The position numbers and the translations under genes are program-made. Positions 1 through 18,770 of a stretch of 21,551 bases of DNA are shown one piece after another. The notes under the pieces are model-generated. The model was not told where the DNA came from. It searched no databases and was given only the letters and a program-made list of their open reading frames with translations. The stretch comes from Chrysochromulina tobinii (lineage: Eukaryota; Haptophyta; Prymnesiales; Chrysochromulinaceae): NCBI GenBank assembly GCA_001275005.1, contig JWZX01002665.1:1-21551 (forward strand). The letters are read 5' to 3'. How positions within the stretch are numbered: position 1 is the stretch's first letter; every line of letters starts with the position of its first letter.

Positions 1-2548
1 CCGGCACATTGTGACGACTGCCGTCAGCAGCATTGCCACCTCCTTGTGCACGTTGCGAGGGCGGCCGGCGCGCCAGACGACTGAGGCGCGGCGCTTGGCC
101 ACGTACATAGTCAAGGGAGCGGCCGACGATGCCCCGCCTGGCGGATGCGATGAGCCGCTTGCTCGAAGCATTGCTCGCGCGGCTGTGCCACTTATTCAGC
201 CATTCGCGCTCTTGGGACGCGACGGGCGGCCGGTAGAGGGGCACATTCACAGACCAAGGCACCTGGTCGAAGCGTACGAGCGCACGCTTGGCATAGCGCG
301 TGGCCTTCGTGTCGTCTCGGCACTTGAGGTGAGGGCGCATCCGCCTCTCAACTATCTCGACCCAGTCCCTGTGCGAAGCGTAGAGGTGATTATAATCGGC
401 CGAGTCGGCCGAGATGTCAACCCACTTGACTTTGCCTGCATCGTCCCCTGCCTCGAGTTTGAGCAGCCGCGCTTGTTTTTCGTCACAGTGGAAGTGGTAG
501 GCTGTCGTCTCAATCCACGCATTGTCCGTATTGCGCGGATCATCGACGTACCCCCGGTAGACGACGACGCCCGACTCAAAGAGATCGCTCACGAGCTTCT
601 TATTGCTCTCTTTCGTGGCGTTTGCATTCACGGCGCATGCCTCTTCCATGAACTCGCGCTTCAGGGTCTCAGAGACAGTCTCGCCCTCGTCGACCATACC
701 GCCCGGAATGGCCCAGTCACCTGTGTCTTTCCGCTTGATGACGACCATCTGCAACTTGCGCTCGCCCGGATGGGTGGGGTCCCAGCGCGTGACGATAGGA
801 TCGGCCGCATGGTTCGGGCCCCATTTTCCAAGCACCCCCCGCATGCAGAGGCCGGTGCGCCCACGGGGGTTGCGCGGCCTTTTGTACCCATCCATCTCAA
901 TCCTCGTCGTCTCGAAGCTCTTGCGCTTCGAGAGCTCCTCTACAAACGGCAGCGGAAAGGGCTGCCACTGACCGTTCACCTTTGGCAGCTCTGGGTCGGC
1001 CCAGCCCTTCCTCGGCTTTTGCTCCTGAGGCACTTTGCCGCGATCATTGTCGAGGACCTCCTTGGAGGTGAATTCGAGTGGTCGGTACGCTTCGAACTCT
1101 GCAGTCCAGGGCACCTTAGAGTCGGGCACTGCGACACGCTGCGGTAGATTCGGATGCGGCCCGCGGCACTTGTGGTGCTCGCGTTTCACGCCACCGAGTG
1201 GCTCAAGCTGGAACGTCCTACTCGTGCCCGCTCGCTTGCGGTGCGCATCCTCTTTCTCACGCTTCTTGAAGGACTCTACGAAGGCTTTGAGCATCGCGAT
1301 GTCGAACGAGTGGCCCGAGGTGACAGAGAAGATCGAGAGCAAGTCGAGCCGCTGCGCGATGCTCTTGAGGTTCTCGAGGCACCTTTCCCTCTTATCCTCC
1401 TTCATCTCCTCGCGGTTGTGCCTCACAAAGACAGGCCTGAACTCACCCATGCGCTCCTCGATGCGCTCTTTGAGGCGCTCGGGGTCTTCCAACAGGCCCT
1501 TCTTGTCATGGACGAGCGGCTCGATAAACTCAGAGATGGTCTGCGCGGCGCCCTTGCTCTCCTTGACCAGCACAACCATGTGCTCTTCCTTTACGGCGCT
1601 CGCGACCGTTTCGTACGTGCCTGGACCGCCCTCGAGCACGAGCAGCACGAGCGGCACTTTCTTCTCCTTCGCAATCTCCGCCTCGAGCTTTGTGCGCAGC
1701 GAGATCGCGCTGCCCCACTCGTCCTTCCCATTCTCGACCAGGATGAAATGCGTGTGGTTCGGATCGAGCGCGGAGCTCTCCTTCGAGTTCTTCTTCCGCT
1801 TCACGTACACCACCTCATGCTCCTGCGTAAGGTGCTTCTCCCTCGTGGAAGCGCGTGCACCTGCGGCCGTGGATGCGCGCGCGGTCGTAGCCGTGCGGGG
1901 AAGCTGCGGCGGAGCTGCGGACGAGGCCGCGGCTGCCGTGTGGTCGCCATCCCGGCCGCTGCCAGCGCCACCGCTGACTTTCTGCGCCGAGTCGAGCCTA
2001 TAGAGCTTCTCGCGATGCGTCACCTTGCGCCACGGCCGTATGCCGATGCACGGCGTGCTCCCATAGCGGCTGAAAGCCTCACGCATCGCCAGACCCGTCA
2101 GGTTCATCACGCCGCGGTCTTCGCCTCCGGTAAACACCCACGCGTTCGTCGATCGCGCGGCAGACGCGAGGCCTTGCTTCATAAAGTTCTGCAGCGTCAG
2201 GTCCATCTTCAGCTCGTGCTTGCCTCCAACAGAGCCGATGACAGAGATGAGCACCGACGGCGGCGGCAGTTGCCACTCTTTTAGGAGGGTGAGGATTGCC
2301 GCCTGGTCTTGAATTTCCGACGACACGACGGCAAATTTTGCCTGGGCCTTGGCGAGCTGCGAGTGGACATTCTCCCCAAGGGCACCATCATTATTGAAGA
2401 TGATGGTGCCCTTGGCGAGAATGTCCAGTGGCCCAGAACCCTCAGTCTCGTCTTCCTCGATGTCCACGGCCACTCCACTCTTGGCACTAAACGACCTGAC
2501 CCGACCCCAGAAAGAGCTACCAGTTCGGACCACAGGAGGCGTCGTCAT
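1..2548 (-). CDS. TRPM-type SLOG/LSDAT domain fused to a NUDT9-type ADP-ribose pyrophosphatase (partial, 3' end beyond window)
   Basis: The frame is open from the ATG at 2548 to base 1 (849 codons, no stop), so the C-terminus is missing. Residues about 55-330 match the N-terminal MHR1/2 region of TRPM channels, the SLOG/LSDAT fold: PPPSVLISVIGSVGG (96-109), AWVFTGGEDRGVMN (136-149), IGIRPW then HREKL, FILVENGK (268-275) and LEGGP (305-309). Residues about 470-745 match NUDT9: VPDSKVPW (474-481), NPRGRTGL (560-567), GPNH and TRW, a Nudix box from G617 to E636 with REFMEEA (631-637), and GYVDDPRNTDNAW. The Nudix consensus G-x5-E-x7-R-E-aliphatic/aromatic-x-E-E is complete, so I infer an active hydrolase of ADP-ribose to AMP and ribose-5-phosphate. 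A low-complexity Ala/Gly/Ser linker (about 211-234) interrupts the SLOG region. In TRPM2 the channel separates these two domains; here they are adjacent. Codons near the left edge are doubtful (see findings). Confidence 0.88.
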   Translation of the reverse strand, partial: MTTPPVVRTGSSFWGRVRSFSAKSGVAVDIEEDETEGSGPLDILAKGTIIFNNDGALGENVHSQLAKAQAKFAVVSSEIQDQAAILTLLKEWQLPPPSVLISVIGSVGGKHELKMDLTLQNFMKQGLASAARSTNAWVFTGGEDRGVMNLTGLAMREAFSRYGSTPCIGIRPWRKVTHREKLYRLDSAQKVSGGAGSGRDGDHTAAAASSAAPPQLPRTATTARASTAAGARASTREKHLTQEHEVVYVKRKKNSKESSALDPNHTHFILVENGKDEWGSAISLRTKLEAEIAKEKKVPLVLLVLEGGPGTYETVASAVKEEHMVVLVKESKGAAQTISEFIEPLVHDKKGLLEDPERLKERIEERMGEFRPVFVRHNREEMKEDKRERCLENLKSIAQRLDLLSIFSVTSGHSFDIAMLKAFVESFKKREKEDAHRKRAGTSRTFQLEPLGGVKREHHKCRGPHPNLPQRVAVPDSKVPWTAEFEAYRPLEFTSKEVLDNDRGKVPQEQKPRKGWADPELPKVNGQWQPFPLPFVEELSKRKSFETTRIEMDGYKRPRNPRGRTGLCMRGVLGKWGPNHAADPIVTRWDPTHPGERKLQMVVIKRKDTGDWAIPGGMVDEGETVSETLKREFMEEACAVNANATKESNKKLVSDLFESGVVVYRGYVDDPRNTDNAWIETTAYHFHCDEKQARLLKLEAGDDAGKVKWVDISADSADYNHLYASHRDWVEIVERRMRPHLKCRDDTKATRYAKRALVRFDQVPWSVNVPLYRPPVASQEREWLNKWHSRASNASSKRLIASARRGIVGRSLDYVRGQAPRLSRLARRPPSQRAQGGGNAADGSRHNVP
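2364..2425. repeat. 27-bp inverted repeat inside the SLOG-NUDT9 coding region
   Basis: Two 27-base arms, the left starting GGACATTCTC and the right ending GAGAATGTCC, are reverse complements with one mismatch (CCC in the left arm, GCC equivalent in the right). They flank a loop of about 8 bases. The repeat lies in the N-terminal coding part of the fusion gene, around DILAKGTII to GENVH. Because of frame symmetry both strands encode nearly the same peptide there. It could form a strong mRNA hairpin or a cruciform. The coordinates are good to a few bases. Confidence 0.85.
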
Positions 2549-2921
2549 GTCAGGCCGTCGGATGTGTGCTCGTGAGTGAACTCGTTTGCGGAATTTGCGC
2601 GGCCTTCTTACCGGTAAAAAGACACCGGGGGGAGCCGGGACACACACTTACCGGTGACCTCATTGTGTGAACGTTAAAACGACAGACGCGACATTGTGTG
2701 TCGAAATGACCGGAACGGCACGAAACGCAAACGGCACGAATATCACCTAAAAAAAAACCACACACGTTACTTAAATGTGAACTGGAGCAATGAACTGGAG
2801 GCGAGGCGTCTCTGCATGCGTCTCTGAAACAGAACCTGGAGGTCCAGGACGCTATGCAGAAATAACCACACAGCTCTCAGGTCATACTCACAGCGCGATC
2901 CCGCGCCGCGATCTCAGCGGT
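2549..2921. promoter_or_regulatory. Intergenic region: putative promoter of the SLOG-NUDT9 gene and 3' end of the decarboxylase gene
   Basis: No convincing gene lies here; the small ORFs have no recognisable composition. The region holds two ACCGGT palindromes, at 2609-2616 (as TACCGGTA) and around 2650. It also has two CATTGTGTG words (near 2663 and 2692), a repeated CGGCACGAA (about 2716-2740), a run of eight A with neighbours near 2750, and a 13-bp-spaced duplication of TGAACTGGAG (2778-2787 and 2791-2800). The first TACCGGTA is about 60 bp upstream of the SLOG-NUDT9 ATG. The regulatory role is inferred from position only. Confidence 0.4.
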
Positions 2922-4406
2922 TTAGCCGGCTCTGCGCTCACAGTCACACCCCGCGGCCGCGGCCTGCGGATGCGAGAGTGGCAATTGCCACAAGCGCAGA
3001 GCGTCATCGACCGTCTCGCCACTCGCAATCTGATACACCGTGCGTCCCCCGTTCCGAACCCCATATGCAGGCGGAGCCTGTCGGCTATTGTACTTGGAGA
3101 ACATGGCGAGCGTGTACGCGCCCGTGTCGTGCACACATACGAAATGGCCACTCTGGAGCCGTGACGTCAGCCGAACACCTTGGGCGACAATGTCCCCTCG
3201 GAAGCACAGCGGGCCGACAACATCCCACACGTCGCCATCCGCCGCGGGCTCCAGAAAGTTGCCGTCCGCGTCCCACGCCGAGACTCGGTGCGGCCAGTTG
3301 GCAGGTTGATAGGCGGTGCGCAAGAACAGGTCGGCCCCGCAATGCACCGTCGCTATGCGACGGCCGCCTGCCCTCTTGACGTACTCGACCTTGCTGATCG
3401 TGAGGGCGCACTTGGCGGACGCAAACCGGCCGAACTCGGTCACGACTGTATAGCGTCCGCCGCCGAGGAGGCCAGGCAGTTGAGCGCGCAGAGCTGCCGC
3501 GTAACGCCCTGGTGTGAGGCGAGTGGGCATGAGCTCATTGGGCTCATCGGACGCATAATCTGCCGGCAGGCCGCCGCCCACATCAACCAGCGTCACCTGT
3601 GGACGACCGGCCGCCGCGTTGATCTCATCGGCGAGCGCAAGGGCCGCGCGCGCGCCGCTCACGAGCAGCTCAAGCCCGCACCCTTGCGAGCCCACGTGGC
3701 AATGAACGCCGGTTAGCCATCGGAACGTTCTGAAGCTCTGAAGCAGCTCTGCCTTGGCCTCCGTGAGGGGCACGCCAAACTTGGACATGGGTGCGATGGT
3801 GCCAGTCGCGGCTATGCTTCCTTCGCCCAGTTGGGGATTCACACGGATGCCGATGCGCGACCGGCAAGTGCCCAGACCGAGGGTCCCACCGCCGCCATAC
3901 TCAGAAGCAAGGATCTCGTCGATGCGCACGAGCTCATCAAGGTTGTCAGCGTTGAGCAGCACGCCGGCCGCGAGCGCGGCGCGAAGATCACGCCGCGTCT
4001 TGGCGGGGCTATCCATGACGATGCGGTCGGGTGTGAACCCGAGCCGCATGGCGTGCTCGAGTTCGGCTGGGCTGGCGACTTCGCATCCAAACCCCAGCTC
4101 CTTGGCGATGAGCAAACACGCCGCGAGCGGGTTGGCCTTCATGGCAATTGCATGCATGGTGTCGGGAGGAAAGCTCTGTTTCACGTCGCGCAGGGTAGCC
4201 TCGAACGCGTCCAAGTCAAAGTAGAGCGCGCAGGGCACTTCGTCGGAGAGCATTGCGATGGCCTTTGGGAGCAGCTCCTGCTGCAGTGGCGTGGGCACGC
4301 TTACAGGCGGCAGCGGGTGCGTTCGTGCGAAATCCGCAGCGGCGAAATCGGGTGTGAGCGCACAAAGGATCACCGCTCTGCCGCCGAGCAACTCGCCGAG
4401 CCTCAT
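2922..4406 (-). CDS. Fold-type III PLP-dependent decarboxylase (Orn/DAP/Arg decarboxylase 2 family)
   Basis: The protein has 494 aa from the ATG at 4406; an upstream in-frame extension to 4631 overlaps the next gene and lacks family similarity. The alanine-racemase-like TIM barrel is clear: MKANP with the PLP lysine K90, HVGSQ (237-241), VDVGGG (275-279) for the PLP phosphate, and EFGR (324-327) at the usual EPGR site. The C-terminal beta domain has GPLCFRGD with the active-site Cys C401, and HDTGAY (426-431) followed by KYNSRQ. These motifs are closest in layout to diaminopimelate and ornithine decarboxylases, which release CO2 from a basic or dicarboxylic amino acid using pyridoxal phosphate. 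The substrate-specifying stretch after C401 (FRGD) is neither the typical DAP nor the typical ornithine form, so the substrate is not assigned. The ATG lies only 67 bp from the stop of the upstream F-box gene. Confidence 0.85.
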   Translation of the reverse strand: MRLGELLGGRAVILCALTPDFAAADFARTHPLPPVSVPTPLQQELLPKAIAMLSDEVPCALYFDLDAFEATLRDVKQSFPPDTMHAIAMKANPLAACLLIAKELGFGCEVASPAELEHAMRLGFTPDRIVMDSPAKTRRDLRAALAAGVLLNADNLDELVRIDEILASEYGGGGTLGLGTCRSRIGIRVNPQLGEGSIAATGTIAPMSKFGVPLTEAKAELLQSFRTFRWLTGVHCHVGSQGCGLELLVSGARAALALADEINAAAGRPQVTLVDVGGGLPADYASDEPNELMPTRLTPGRYAAALRAQLPGLLGGGRYTVVTEFGRFASAKCALTISKVEYVKRAGGRRIATVHCGADLFLRTAYQPANWPHRVSAWDADGNFLEPAADGDVWDVVGPLCFRGDIVAQGVRLTSRLQSGHFVCVHDTGAYTLAMFSKYNSRQAPPAYGVRNGGRTVYQIASGETVDDALRLWQLPLSHPQAAAAGCDCERRAG

Positions 4407-4441
4407 TGTGCTCGTGCATGCTCGTGTGAACAACGATGTTT

Positions 4442-4452
4442 GTGAATATAAC
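4442..4452 (-). promoter_or_regulatory. Possible TATA-like element in the 67-bp gap before the decarboxylase gene
   Basis: Read on the minus strand the gap contains GTTATATTCAC about 40 bp upstream of the decarboxylase ATG. It is the only AT-rich patch in this very short intergenic stretch. Its position would suit a core promoter with a short 5' leader, but this is inference. Confidence 0.25.
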
Positions 4453-4473
4453 GTCGCAAACGCACAACTCAAG

Positions 4474-6021
4474 TCAAATCGCTTGGGCTTGCATGGCACG
4501 TGCCGTAGCCCGGGCCGCCCTCCCGGCCAAGTCGCCACTGCGGGAAGAGTCGCCACTGCGGCGCTCTCGCTCGACCGGGAGATCGACGTGGCTGAGCAGA
4601 AGACGTGTGGACCACACGTCCTCTGCAGCACTCACAAGCACGTGGCACTGGCTCATGCCCAGGCTGAGCCGGTAGGTGCCGCAGGCCGAGAGCAGACTGA
4701 GCACCTGGCCGTAGCGCAGCGGCAGAGCCTGTGCGGCCGACGGCGCCGCCGCGGAGGTGGAGGACGAGGCAACGGCTGCTGAGGGTGACAAGGCAGCGGC
4801 CGCCGTCGCTTCGGAGGTTGGCGCGGCTGGCGCCAATCCGGCGCCAATCTCGCTCGATCTCTCATACGGGCAGAGCCGTACGCGAGTGCCCCCACTCTCG
4901 TGCGAGACAGGCTGCGGGTTGAGGGCGTACACCAAGTCGAGTCGGTGGGTCCCATCGGAGGTGAATAGGCCGATGGTATGCCGAGTGCTCAGGTAGCCAA
5001 TGCTCGGCCCGTCAAGCCGGCGCACTACGAGCTGCGTCCACTTGTCAGAACCGACCCCCTCGCCCCATATGCCTCCGCAATCGGCAAGCTGGCGCAGTCG
5101 GAGGCTCGCGAGCTGACCCAGAGGGCGCGGATGCGTCCCCTCGGGGCCGACGTCGAGGCGCGCCTTGGCGGACTCGCTGAGCACCCGTAGTGTCGAGCTC
5201 GCATAGACGCAGCCAAAACTTGCCTGCCACTTTGGGCTCTGGTGCAGCCGACGTACGGCCGCGCGCCACTCGCGGCTCGCGCACTCAAGAGCCGCGTGCG
5301 CGTCTGGCGAGAGGATCTGAAGCACAAGGTTGGTACAGTCGTCGTCAAGGACGAGAAGCGGGCACGAGCGGCGGCGCAGCCCGAGCCGCGCCGAGCGGCG
5401 CTGGGGCGGCTGCGCCCGCGAGGGCGCGTCCGCCACGAGTGCGTTCGTCGCGGTCGCGAGCGCGTCCGCAGCCACCGCATCCGCAAGCTGGTGTTGGCGC
5501 TGGCGCTCGCGCTCGCGCTCCTCGGGGGGCTGCCTAAAGGTAGCACTGCTGCCGCCGTCGCGCAGGTGCCGGAGCTCAGCGAGGACCTCGGCGGGCGGTG
5601 GCAAGAAGCCGCCCTCCAGCTCGAGCATCTCTGCAACTTCGGGCACGGACGAGGCAATCTGGATCGCCGACTCAGCAAAGGCCCGCGCCTGGTCCGACTC
5701 ACTCAGCAGCGTATCCATCAGCTCGATCATCGCCGACGCAATCGGAGTCGGATTGGAGAGCCACGCCATGACCTCGGCCCGCTCATACGGCTGCATCGTC
5801 GCCATCAGCCGCTGCGCGAGCGGGTTGAGCGCGGCGATGAGTGTGTTCGAGATGGTGAGAGCCAGGTCCTGCATGTCCATCGCCTCGGGCTGCAGCAAGC
5901 CCTCCGTATCGAAGGCGTGGTGTAGCACCTCGCTCACGAGGTCGACCGATGCCATGCCCTCGGCCGCGAGCGCCGCACGGAGCGCTGGCGGGATCACGTC
6001 AAAGAGAAAGGATCCCTCCAT
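4474..6021 (-). CDS. F-box-like protein with a helical N-terminal region
   Basis: The protein has 515 aa from the ATG at 6021 (MEGSFLFDV...); an in-frame extension to 6147 is Cys-rich and unconvincing. Residues 1-140 are predicted helical and Leu/Met/Ala-rich. A charged Arg/Glu/Gln stretch lies at about 166-178. Residues about 224-263 look like an F-box: PLLVLDDDCTNLVLQIL, then DAHAALECASREWRAAV, the pattern of a hydrophobic helix followed by L-x-x-(A/V)-C-x-x-W. F-box proteins link substrates to SCF ubiquitin ligases through SKP1. The C-terminal half is beta-like with an Ala/Ser/Thr-rich low-complexity insert (about 400-440) and no family I recognise. The gene sits 67 bp upstream of the decarboxylase on the same strand and is divergent from the armadillo-like gene. 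Gene reality is well supported by length and composition; the F-box assignment is moderate. Confidence 0.6.
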   Translation of the reverse strand: MEGSFLFDVIPPALRAALAAEGMASVDLVSEVLHHAFDTEGLLQPEAMDMQDLALTISNTLIAALNPLAQRLMATMQPYERAEVMAWLSNPTPIASAMIELMDTLLSESDQARAFAESAIQIASSVPEVAEMLELEGGFLPPPAEVLAELRHLRDGGSSATFRQPPEERERERQRQHQLADAVAADALATATNALVADAPSRAQPPQRRSARLGLRRRSCPLLVLDDDCTNLVLQILSPDAHAALECASREWRAAVRRLHQSPKWQASFGCVYASSTLRVLSESAKARLDVGPEGTHPRPLGQLASLRLRQLADCGGIWGEGVGSDKWTQLVVRRLDGPSIGYLSTRHTIGLFTSDGTHRLDLVYALNPQPVSHESGGTRVRLCPYERSSEIGAGLAPAAPTSEATAAAALSPSAAVASSSTSAAAPSAAQALPLRYGQVLSLLSACGTYRLSLGMSQCHVLVSAAEDVWSTRLLLSHVDLPVERERRSGDSSRSGDLAGRAARATARAMQAQAI

Positions 6022-10040: not shown

Positions 10041-10754
10041 ATGTTTTTCTTGCTCACAGTGGTCACCGCTGCAGGGCCGCTGCGAGTTCTTTGCTACGGG
10101 GACTCGCTGACCGCCGGCACGAGCCCACCGTTAGACACGCTTCACCCATTCTCGCCCATTCTCGAGAGAGCGATAGGCTCCTCTACGGCGATCGTCCGTC
10201 ACCTCGGCCTTCCCGGTTGGACTGCCGCAGCCATGCTGCAGAACGTGAATGATGACCAGAGAGGCCTCAATAGCCTGCTGAAGCGAACATCGCCAAGCCT
10301 TGCAATCATCCTCGCGGGTACGAACGATCTTGGATACAACTCTGAGCCGGGTCCTATCCTTCAAGCACTCTGCGGCTTGCACCAGATCGCACATGATCTG
10401 GAAGTGCCCACGCTCGCGGTGGGCATCCCGCCGTCCGCGTATCAGGCTCAACAAACAGAAGCTGCGGAGCTCGCCATTGCCGTCAACCGCGGGTTGCGTG
10501 CGTGGTGCGACGACAGAGGCAACATGGTGCCTTGGAAGCGTGCGTTTGCTGGGGGCCGGGTGGAGGTTACTGGCGGTGGGGTGGGTCCCTGGGCGACGTA
10601 CGTGGAGCCGCCGATCACGCAATGGCGGCGAGGGGATTGGCTGTGGGCCCCCGACGGCCTGCATTTCTCGCCCGAGGGATATGCCAAGATCGGCGAAGGT
10701 CTTGCAGGCCCGGTAGCCCAGCGGCTCCAAAGCTTGACGAGCAGCAAAGCATGA
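10041..10754 (+). CDS. GDSL/SGNH-family hydrolase (putative esterase/lipase), probably secreted
   Basis: The protein has 237 aa from the ATG at 10041. A short hydrophobic N-terminus (MFFLLTVVTAAG) is probably a signal peptide. Block I is CYGDSLTAG with nucleophile S22. Block II glycine is probably G59 in GLPGWTA. Block III is GTNDLG (93-98) with the oxyanion-hole Asn N95. Block V is PDGLHFSPEGY with D205 and H208 completing the triad. The family hydrolyses ester bonds in lipids, polysaccharide acetyl groups or similar substrates. Length is normal for a single-domain SGNH enzyme and all catalytic residues are present. The substrate cannot be assigned. The first beta-strand follows the leader within a few residues, so a signal anchor or short cleaved leader are both possible. 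The gene converges on the next minus-strand gene with a 119-bp gap. Confidence 0.88.
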   Translation: MFFLLTVVTAAGPLRVLCYGDSLTAGTSPPLDTLHPFSPILERAIGSSTAIVRHLGLPGWTAAAMLQNVNDDQRGLNSLLKRTSPSLAIILAGTNDLGYNSEPGPILQALCGLHQIAHDLEVPTLAVGIPPSAYQAQQTEAAELAIAVNRGLRAWCDDRGNMVPWKRAFAGGRVEVTGGGVGPWATYVEPPITQWRRGDWLWAPDGLHFSPEGYAKIGEGLAGPVAQRLQSLTSSKA

Positions 10755-16116: not shown

Positions 16117-18770
16117 CTATGTGCCGGGCATGTTGAGGTTGAAGCCACCGCCCGTGAAGCGGTTAAGTGTCGAGCGCGCCTCTTGCACGAGCAGCTCGGT
16201 AGGGATGGCGCGCTCGGCACGGCGCACCTCAGCCGCGTGCTGCTCGCGCTTGCGCTGGTCGTAAAACTTCTTCTTCACCTCTTGTAGCTCCTTGGAGATG
16301 CGAGCGATCTCGTACTTGTACTCGGAGGCCTGCGTATGCGACATGGACAGCTCGGCCTCTAATTGCTCCATCTGCTTGGCGCGCTCGACGAGCGACGCCT
16401 GGAAGGTCGATAGCTGCTCGGCGACCTCGGGGCCGGGCTGGCGCGCGAGGATGTTCTTGAGCTCGAGGTAGAGCTTCTCCTTGTGCCGGATGAGCAGATC
16501 CTTATCGAGCACCTCCTCGGACTTCTCGATTAGCCGCTTCTGGAGCATGTGAGTCTTCTGCACGAGCTCGTACGTGGCCGGGTCGGAGCCCTCGAGCTTG
16601 CGCCACCGGTGCACGTTCATCGGGTTCTCGAGCTCCTCCGAGAGTGCGCGCACCTTGGTGCGCTCGTGCAGCAGCTCGCGCTGCAGCTGGTACACCTCAT
16701 TGCGCAGCGTCTCGACCGACCCCTTTTGGGAAGCCACGCCTCCCAGCTGGCCGCCGAGCTCCCGGATGCGCCGCTTGAGCGCGCGGATGTCCTTGACGCG
16801 CACCTTGTACTGCTGCTCGCCTTTTTGGAGGTTGGACTGCTGGATGCGGATCTTCTCGTACAGCAGCGAGAGCTCCTCGTTACGTCGAATGAGCTGCGTG
16901 CCGAGGATGTCGCGCTCGTTGACGACGACCTCGCACTCCTTGCGCTGTCGCTGATGCTCTTTGTCGGCCTCGTTGATGATCGTGTTGAGCTTGGTCGTCT
17001 CGGCGAGCATCTGGGCCACGTAGTCCTCGCTCTGCTGCTCGCGCGTGCGCAGCTTCCCCAAGTGGTCGCGCAGCAGCTCCTTCTCCTTCTCTACCTTCAT
17101 CCGGTCGAAGTGCTCGCGCACCAAATTCTGGTCTTTGATATGGATCTCCTCCTTCAGCTGCTCGATCTGGTGGTTCATGATCTTGAACTTGCGTTTCATC
17201 TCGGCGATCTCGTCCTGCGACTCGACCAGGTTCTTCGAGTACAGGTTGCGGTCCGAGCGCACCGCCTCGTACAGCGCCTGCTGCTGCTTGAGCTTCGCCT
17301 CGCCCTCGGCGATGCGCTTCTGCAACTGGATAATGGACATCTCGCGCACGCGAACCTCATCGAGCGCCTGGTTGTACTTGCCGCGCGCCTCGGCGGCCTC
17401 GGCGCCGTACTTCTCGCCCTCCTTCTCGAGCAGGTACAGCTGCTTGCGCTGCATGTGCGCCTCGGTCTTGAAGCCCGAAATCTCGAGCTCGAGATTGCGC
17501 CGCGTGTTCTCGCACATGAGGACCTGGTCCATCTGCTTGGCGGTCACGCCCGACGCGAGGATGAGCTTCTTGTTCTGCAGGTCGCGCTCGCGCAGCAGAT
17601 CATCAAGCTCGCGCCGCTCCTTTTCGTGCGCCTCCTTGGCCGCCTCGAGCTTCTCGTCGAGCGCAATGATCTCGAGCTTGGCCGCGTCGCGATCCTTTTC
17701 ATCCGCGAGCAATTCCTTCCGCTTCGCTTCGAGCGCCTTCTCGGCCACCTCGGCGGTCTTCAAGATGCGCTTGAGCTCCGCCTCAGTGCGCGCCTTCTCC
17801 TCCTGGCACAGCTTGAGCTCCACCTGCCGCTGCGCCCCCTCTGTCACCATCTGCTGCAGCGCATGCTGCGCCTCCTCGCACTCGCGTATCAGCTTCGTCG
17901 TCTTGCCGCTGAGCGCGTCCGTCTCCTTGCCGTTCTTGTCCGTCTTGCCGCGCTCCTCGCGCAGCAGGATCTCGAGCTTGGTGCAGCCGTCCTGCGTGCG
18001 CGCGAGCCCGGTAACCTTGTCCTTGATCGCCTGCTGCTTCGCCTCGAGGGCCTCGCGCAGCGTCCGCACCTCCGCCTCGAGTTTCTCATCCTTCTTGCCC
18101 TCCTTCTCCGCCTCGAGCTTGCGCTGGTGTATGACCTCCTTGAGGGCCTCCATCTCCTCGTGGGCCGCAGCTACCTCGCCCTCGATGTTCTCGAGCTTGG
18201 CCAGGTACTGCGTGATCTCCTTTGCGAGGGATTGGATCTGCGCCGCCTGCGCCTCTTTCTCCTTAGCAAGGTCCTGCTTCACCTTGACCAGCTCGTTGAC
18301 CGTGTTCTCCTGCCCGATCGACAGGCCCGCACCCTGCTCGACGAGGCGCGAGAGGTTCTGGATCTCGTGCCTTCAGCTGCTGGATCGTCTCCCTGGCCGC
18401 GCCCCTCCTTCTCGTGCGCAGCGTCCACCATCTTCCACGCCTTCTCGATCTCGCGCTTGAGAGACGCGATCGTGTTCTGGTCCTCTTGCGAGAGCTTGAG
18501 CGCCGTCTGCACCTTGGCGGCATTCGCCACGATTTCCTGGTTCAGCTCGCGGCACTTTTTGATCAGCCGCTTCTCGGATTCGTGCGACTTTTTCAGCGCG
18601 CGGTGCAGCTTGTCATACTCGTTCCGGAAGCGCTCGAGGCTCTTGTCGCCGACAAGCTCCTGCAGCACCTCCTGGAAATCGTTCTCGAGCGCCTCGAAGG
18701 CACCGCTCTCGAAGCCTGGCGCGTTGTCGGTCGCCTTCTTTACGTCGTCCGAGTTCGAAGGCTCTCCCAT
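16117..18770 (-). CDS. CFAP58: Cilia- and flagella-associated protein 58 (CFAP58/CCDC147) with two frame breaks
   Basis: The start is the ATG at 18770 (MGEPSNSDDV...). With two 1-base corrections the reading gives about 883 aa, close to the usual ~870 aa. It is coiled coil almost throughout. Diagnostic runs along the whole length match CFAP58: GDKSLERFRNEYDKLHRAL, ALKLSQEDQNTIASLKREIE, YEAVRSDRNLYSKNLVESQD, ERDILGTQLIRRNEELSLLY, ELENPMNVHRWRKLEGSDP and LARQPGPEVAEQL. The protein is needed for assembly of axonemes and, in animals, sperm flagella. As given, the frame from 18770 ends after 163 aa at 18279; the remainder is open from 18282 in another frame. One extra base lies in the C run at 18402-18405 and another at about 18367-18371. 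The 35 bp between reads in the third frame and still matches the family, so these are single-base insertions, not an intron. The stop TAG is at 16117-16119. Confidence 0.92.

Follow-up and report, generated by a model that had tools for sequence, protein, structure and literature searches.

A contig-edge gene of Chrysochromulina tobinii, best read as the beginning of a permuted TRPM-type channel with NUDT9 ahead of the pore

Does a SLOG sensor joined directly to a NUDT9 hydrolase make up a soluble ADP-ribose protein, or is it one part of a rearranged channel? This question is raised by a gene at the edge of contig C1509 of the haptophyte Chrysochromulina tobinii. The window, which is the whole stretch of 21,551 nucleotides analysed from base 1 of this contig onward, has its left edge at the contig start, and the gene is therefore a fragment. 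Its minus-strand frame (2-2647) runs for 882 codons without a stop; residues are numbered along this frame, and ATG 2548, the probable start codon, which aligns to Met1 of protein P0115, is residue 34. Pfam matched a TRPM SLOG domain (E 5.3e-41) in two stretches parted by a low-complexity insert, as well as a NUDIX domain (E 1.2e-9), and the best match among PDB sequences was Nematostella TRPM2 (E 5.1e-76, three stretches). Hydropathy revealed no membrane-spanning hydrophobic segment in the 882 residues. The description given by the first-pass annotation, SLOG followed by NUDT9 in one open frame free of membrane segments, was thus borne out by Pfam, phmmer and hydropathy. Its phrase "without an intervening channel" is literally true of the space between the two domains, but the channel comes after both; a second, degenerate NUDT9 domain lay outside the view of that annotation, since the window reaches no further than its weakly matching beginning. 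The window gene is best read as the first third of a permuted TRPM-type cation channel gene, and its features are collected in Table 1.

Table 1. Features of the putative channel gene in the window
Feature	Residues	Window positions	Strand	Evidence or remark
5' part of coding sequence, putative permuted TRPM2-type channel		2..2548	-	ORF, P0115 alignment; open at left contig end
SLOG/MHR1 half	103-221	1985..2341	-	
Low-complexity insert (Ala/Ser/Thr-rich) within SLOG	222-277	1817..1984	-	translation; low model confidence
SLOG/MHR2 half and subsequent helices	278-461	1265..1816	-	PF18139/PF18171; HMM 281-461
W311	311	1715-1717	-	counterpart of srTRPM2 F268 by alignment
R318	318	1694-1696	-	counterpart of srTRPM2 R275 by alignment
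NUDT9 domain 1, intact	490-774	326..1180	-	phmmer to human NUDT9 1q33 (its residues 3-281 aligned, E 4.8e-64); HMM 429 bits
Nudix box REFMEE	664-669	641..658	-	box identical to that of the active choanoflagellate enzyme
NUDT9 domain 2, probable beginning	773-821	185..331	-	second match of NUDT9 HMM, model positions 2-47, 16 bits, weak
No domain match, runs off contig	822-882	2..184	-	window 1-912 overlaps C955 end

What lies beyond the contig edge is indicated by P0115, which is 88% identical to the window from Met1 onward (746/845) and in which a single frame of 2511 aa holds SLOG (71-182 and 247-426), NUDT9 (455-739), a degenerate NUDT9 with interrupted NUDT9-like matches (878-959 and 1120-1245), MHR3/4 (1228-1617) and the pore (S1-S6, 1668-2029) in this order. 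The domain HMMs giving these boundaries were built from sequences of this analysis, and the result agrees with Pfam, where LSDAT_euk (2.1e-40), NUDIX (5.4e-9), TRPM2-like (1.7e-6) and Ion_trans (2e-7, profile positions 33-235 of 241) were all over the cut-off, MHR3/4 passing narrowly (PF25508, 28.8 against a cut-off of 27). Hydrophobic segments above 1.6 were confined to residues 1682-1987 of P0115, and hydropathy resolved its pore region into five merged segments instead of six. The end of contig C955, which overlaps window 1-912 (885/945 columns identical, 36 gaps), also leads into a channel: its frame, open for 1886 codons, contains the rest of the degenerate NUDT9-like domain 2, MHR3/4 (PF25508, 27.9 against 27, again narrowly over) and a pore (PF00520, Ion_trans, E 3.9e-8, over the cut-off). 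PDB matches of this pore region were TRPM4, TRPM3, TRPC and other TRP channels, mainly at S4-S6, and the region has a TRPM-like S6/TRP helix; S1-S3 are weakly supported, with nvTRPM2 aligning at 3.2 bits only. Ion_trans was below the cut-off in the relatives P0117 and P0119, and the HMM search found no NUDT9 match after the pore in C955 or P0115.

A further contig, C1723 (L033), matches window 1609-2569 at 97.2% over its positions 1-949 and ends at the contig edge, the similarity breaking off just upstream of the start codon. Judging from these contigs, the window gene exists in two or more near-identical copies or alleles. Pairwise dN/dS values were only mildly low (0.40 and 0.63), with few changes. 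Since C1723 reveals a second near-identical copy, to which C955 may belong instead of to the gene on C1509, the join of C1509 to C955 is unproved, and because C955 could belong to either copy, P0115 is the decisive evidence.

In the genome, SLOG matches occur on 14 contigs and NUDT9 matches on 5. On contig C1166 a single frame of 1587 codons covers SLOG and a pair of NUDT9 domains and then enters MHR3/4, and C2058 carries SLOG, NUDT9, NUDT9, MHR3/4 and a pore across successive open pieces; because both carry two domains, the NUDT9 tandem is probably older than the divergence of these genes from the window gene. The NUDT9 domain on C1766 is apparently free. A SLOG-bearing frame of 1782 aa was also noticed on C518 (L028, 2390-7735), with a long C-terminal extension whose repeats look EF-hand-like by eye; this contig has no NUDT9 match, and a scan of it for the S6 motif found nothing.

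The protein set comprises 226 matches listed, from searches that each scored about 8000 best candidates, one listing being the best 120 of 239; it was shaped by the queries and is rich in animal TRPM2, and counts from it are not natural frequencies. Among the matches listed, 148 proteins combine NUDT9 with MHR3/4 or a pore, and NUDT9 stands ahead of the channel parts in 12 of them and behind in 136; another 12 have SLOG then NUDT9 with no channel part, and 66 have NUDT9 alone. Eight of the 12 NUDT9-first proteins begin with SLOG, and the seven of these that reach the pore (P0115 and P0117-P0122) all have the order of P0115 (7/7 among the matches listed). In P0023, P0024 and P0027, NUDT9 is located after the pore. 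The nearest relatives that bear species names are haptophytes, P0014 and P0043 having Prymnesium names, and for the CFAP58 gene farther along the window the best hit with a species name is Prymnesium parvum (63%), although ten hits lacking such a name score higher; a haptophyte source is thus likely on these matches. The first-pass annotation had proposed a search of algal genomes for this domain order, and the order was recovered in C1166, C2058 and P0117-P0122. Two of these relatives have additional features: P0120, with the permuted SLOG-NUDT9-NUDT9-channel order, is annotated with EF-hand domains (PF13499 and others), and in P0122 (2848 aa) the NUDT9 domains are split by long inserts.

These observations bear on two rival readings of the fragment. 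A soluble SLOG-NUDT9 protein that senses and hydrolyses ADP-ribose without a pore, which was one of the two alternatives first offered, would agree with the 882 residues lacking a membrane segment and with the 12 short SLOG-then-NUDT9 records among the matches listed, of which P0004, P0016, P0018 and P0037 come from contigs between 7.8 and 32.9 kb long. However, seven of these 12 records lie on contigs shorter than 6 kb and one has no contig, short records may have been cut at introns, and no stop closes the frame in the window before the contig runs out; P0115 and C955 proceed into MHR3/4 and the pore, and a soluble protein is thereby disfavoured and seems highly improbable. The other alternative, a permuted channel with its membrane part past the left edge, is backed by the pore found in the flanking C955 and in P0115, together with the two genomic paralogues. 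It might also be argued that the order arose from misassembly, a gene-fusion artefact or a pseudogene fragment, given that the gene is broken off on all three of C1509, C955 and C1723, whose partial copies are nearly identical. Yet C1166 and C2058 repeat the order, as do seven proteins encoded on further contigs, the frame has no stop in 882 codons and P0115 stands for 31 member sequences, so an artefact is disfavoured by paralogues and relatives alike and can be regarded as extremely unlikely.

Predicted structure was examined as well. The AlphaFold model of residues 88-782 had a pLDDT of 77 and a pTM of 0.55, with pLDDT below 50 at model residues 128-192 (protein 215-279), and its best Foldseek matches were the TRPM2 chanzyme and human TRPM2, the latter in its MHR1/2-NUDT9H part; NUDT9 domain 1 matched the fold of 1qvj. 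The folds anticipated by the first-pass annotation, TRPM2 MHR1/2 and NUDT9, were thus both recovered by Foldseek. SLOG and NUDT9 each match singly, and because their joint rmsd is about 13-16 Å, the model leaves their relative placement unsettled. A model of the part of the relative P0017 from the two NUDT9 domains to MHR3 was poor (pLDDT 52, pTM 0.37) and did not confirm the fold of domain 2.

The residues that would bind ADP-ribose in the SLOG cleft can be compared with those of Salpingoeca rosetta srTRPM2, in which F268 and R275 are both essential according to the available text of PMC11479946, and which align to W311 and R318 of the window. This pair of aromatic and Arg is kept in 16/20 SLOG rows, with Trp in all 16, and is altered in c1166, P0120, P0121 and P0122 (Ala at the Arg position in P0122); P0014 was left out of this count for a gap at the aromatic. 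By analogy, Trp would do the job of the Phe/Tyr of tested channels. Human TRPM2 R358 aligns to Gly.

The first NUDT9 domain of the window keeps the REFMEE box together with D616, D703, R705 and D736 in alignment; srTRPM2 E1386, E1390, D1330, D1426, R1428 and D1460, with roles described in the available part of PMC11479946, correspond to E665, E669, D616, D703, R705 and D736, and the position of srTRPM2 F1372 is Met651. A choanoflagellate enzyme with the REFMEE box has been reported to hydrolyse ADP-ribose (PMC6461439, in the part available). The P-loop Arg1347 of srTRPM2 contacts MHR2 (PMC11479946, likewise), and because the corresponding loop is shorter by 7 residues in the window, the same NUDT9-MHR2 contact is not expected.

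When the canonical Nudix box is defined as R-E-hydrophobic-x-E-E and only rows covering the box are counted, it is present in 13/26 first domains and 0/20 second domains, although rows are not independent, near-identical copies being included (win, c955 and P0115 being closely related). Left out for uncovered boxes were P0003, P0015, P0043 and P0122 among first domains and the window, P0010, P0012, P0014, P0018 and P0043 among second domains, and the animal protein P0009, with several NUDT9 matches, was also left out. The ribose-site Asp/Arg is retained in 19/20 second domains, P0120 having His, in an alignment that long inserts break up. In the group nearest to the window (win, c955, P0115, P0117 and P0118) 5/5 first domains are canonical, and non-canonical ones are those of c2058, P0001, P0005, P0006, P0008, P0010, P0011, P0016-P0018, P0026, P0119 and P0121. 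Activity of domain 1 is therefore no general property of this group, one half of its covered first domains lacking the canonical box, and some relatives may carry two inactive NUDT9 domains.

We consider it fairly probable, from the domain order and the residues, that the window protein is an ADP-ribose-gated cation channel with a built-in eraser and a pseudo-enzyme reader. The mechanism proposed is modelled on srTRPM2 and human TRPM2 as described in the available portions of PMC11479946 and PMC6759353. ADP-ribose would bind the SLOG cleft and close the MHR1/2 clamshell, MHR3/4 would relay this motion and open the pore, and domain 1 would destroy local ADP-ribose and thereby end the signal. 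Domain 2, since its catalytic glutamates are lost and its ribose-binding residues kept, might be a non-hydrolysing ADP-ribose reader or a link between the sensor and the transduction layer. The chain from the sensor to MHR3/4 passes through both NUDT9 domains. In TRPM2 cryo-EM structures (PMC11479946 and PMC6759353, parts available), a single ADPR-sensing layer is made up of NUDT9-H and MHR1/2; as they share this layer, a NUDT9 domain directly behind MHR1/2 is spatially plausible and could keep a similar neighbourhood, with a changed covalent route. PARG-domain matches number 6 in the genome, counted at exon level and not as genes, and together with PARP-domain matches they suggest that this alga has sources of ADP-ribose; a search for CD38-type cyclases gave no match, but neither did its control. 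The PARP-domain matches number 58, of which 57 are over the cut-off; these too are exon-level matches and not genes, apparently many for an algal genome of 53 Mb.

It might instead be supposed that the permuted channel is not gated by ADP-ribose, its SLOG domain sensing another nucleotide and its NUDT9 domains serving as housekeeping enzyme or scaffold. This would be consistent with the Gly at the R358 equivalent, the replacement of Phe/Tyr by Trp, the altered site pair in 4/20 rows and the box departures among first domains, and nvTRPM2 was reported to keep ADPR currents after removal of NUDT9-H (PMC11479946, in the part available). However, W311 and R318 occupy both essential srTRPM2 positions, and an intact NUDT9 on the same chain would argue for a common ligand, which makes this supposition somewhat unlikely.

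The origin of the hydrolase in the algal protein may differ from that of the animal one. In a tree of 73 NUDT9 domain rows, for which bootstrap had not settled, all 16 animal and choanoflagellate TRPM NUDT9-H rows share a cluster with 7 further NUDT9 proteins (99/100) and are separated from the algal domains, which suggests a separate NUDT9 capture in algae. Branches are long, and the tree requires at least 5 label changes for first domains and 4 for second domains. However, an AU test did not reject a grouping of 12 algal first domains with 12 animal TRPM domains to the exclusion of 3 animal NUDT9 (p 0.357), and a single ancient NUDT9 fusion is thus not rejected.

Several known systems are comparable. 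Like the algal protein, srTRPM2 (PDB 8sr7 series; PMC11479946, in the part available) has the aromatic and Arg SLOG site, MHR3/4, a TRPM-type pore and REFMEE, but it carries one NUDT9-H after the pore, whereas the algal protein has two NUDT9 domains between MHR1/2 and MHR3/4, a box-less second NUDT9, Trp as the aromatic and a shortened P-loop. Human TRPM2 likewise combines an MHR1/2 and NUDT9 sensor and has a degenerate NUDT9, but as one inactive C-terminal domain (RILRQE), in contrast to intact and degenerate copies ahead of the pore. Compared with human NUDT9 (1q33), a free ADP-ribose pyrophosphatase, algal domain 1 is a full NUDT9 but is embedded in a channel protein. Elsewhere in the genome, TRP channels on C957, C1272, C2125, C1295 and C37 also have a SLOG match and an S6-like motif, and no NUDT9 match was found on these contigs. 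With MHR1/2 in the window and MHR3/4 and the pore outside it, in C955 and P0115, the TRPM features are present, but the C-terminal NUDT9-H of TRPM2 is not, the NUDT9 domains preceding MHR3/4.

Previous studies described NUDT9-bearing TRPM2-like channels in protists (srTRPM2; PMC5671594, the available text of which cites Mederos y Schnitzler 2008 for Nudix-linked TRPM in unicellular protists), and a metazoan survey treats NUDT9H as C-terminal (PMC13143021, part available). In the accessible portions of the literature, mostly other than subscription papers, no description of NUDT9 ahead of a TRPM pore was found, nor any paper on haptophytes, TRPM and NUDT9 together. It is tentatively put forward, as a rather doubtful generalisation from sequence, that a haptophyte family joins a SLOG activator, an active NUDT9 hydrolase and a gating inactive NUDT9 in one polypeptide, a combination that would have evolved separately from the inactive NUDT9-H of vertebrates, possibly through a NUDT9 capture of its own. 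For TRPM2, the sources available leave it a live question whether NUDT9-H belongs to the gating ring or is an eraser with a loose attachment, and a hydrolase placed between MHR1/2 and MHR3/4, doubled into an intact and a box-less copy, would separate the eraser and gating roles in one protein. The permuted channel could therefore serve as a natural test of enzyme-channel coupling and, if the reading is true, would extend ADP-ribose-linked channels to haptophyte algae.

Elsewhere in the window, the minus strand encodes an ornithine/DAP/arginine decarboxylase-like protein (2922-4631, PF02784, E 2.3e-34) and the plus strand a GDSL-type esterase/lipase (10041-10754, PF13472, E 2.5e-16). As well, a CFAP58 flagellar protein is present on the minus strand (16117-18282, PF21771, E 5.1e-87), which is 100% identical to P0227 over the query.
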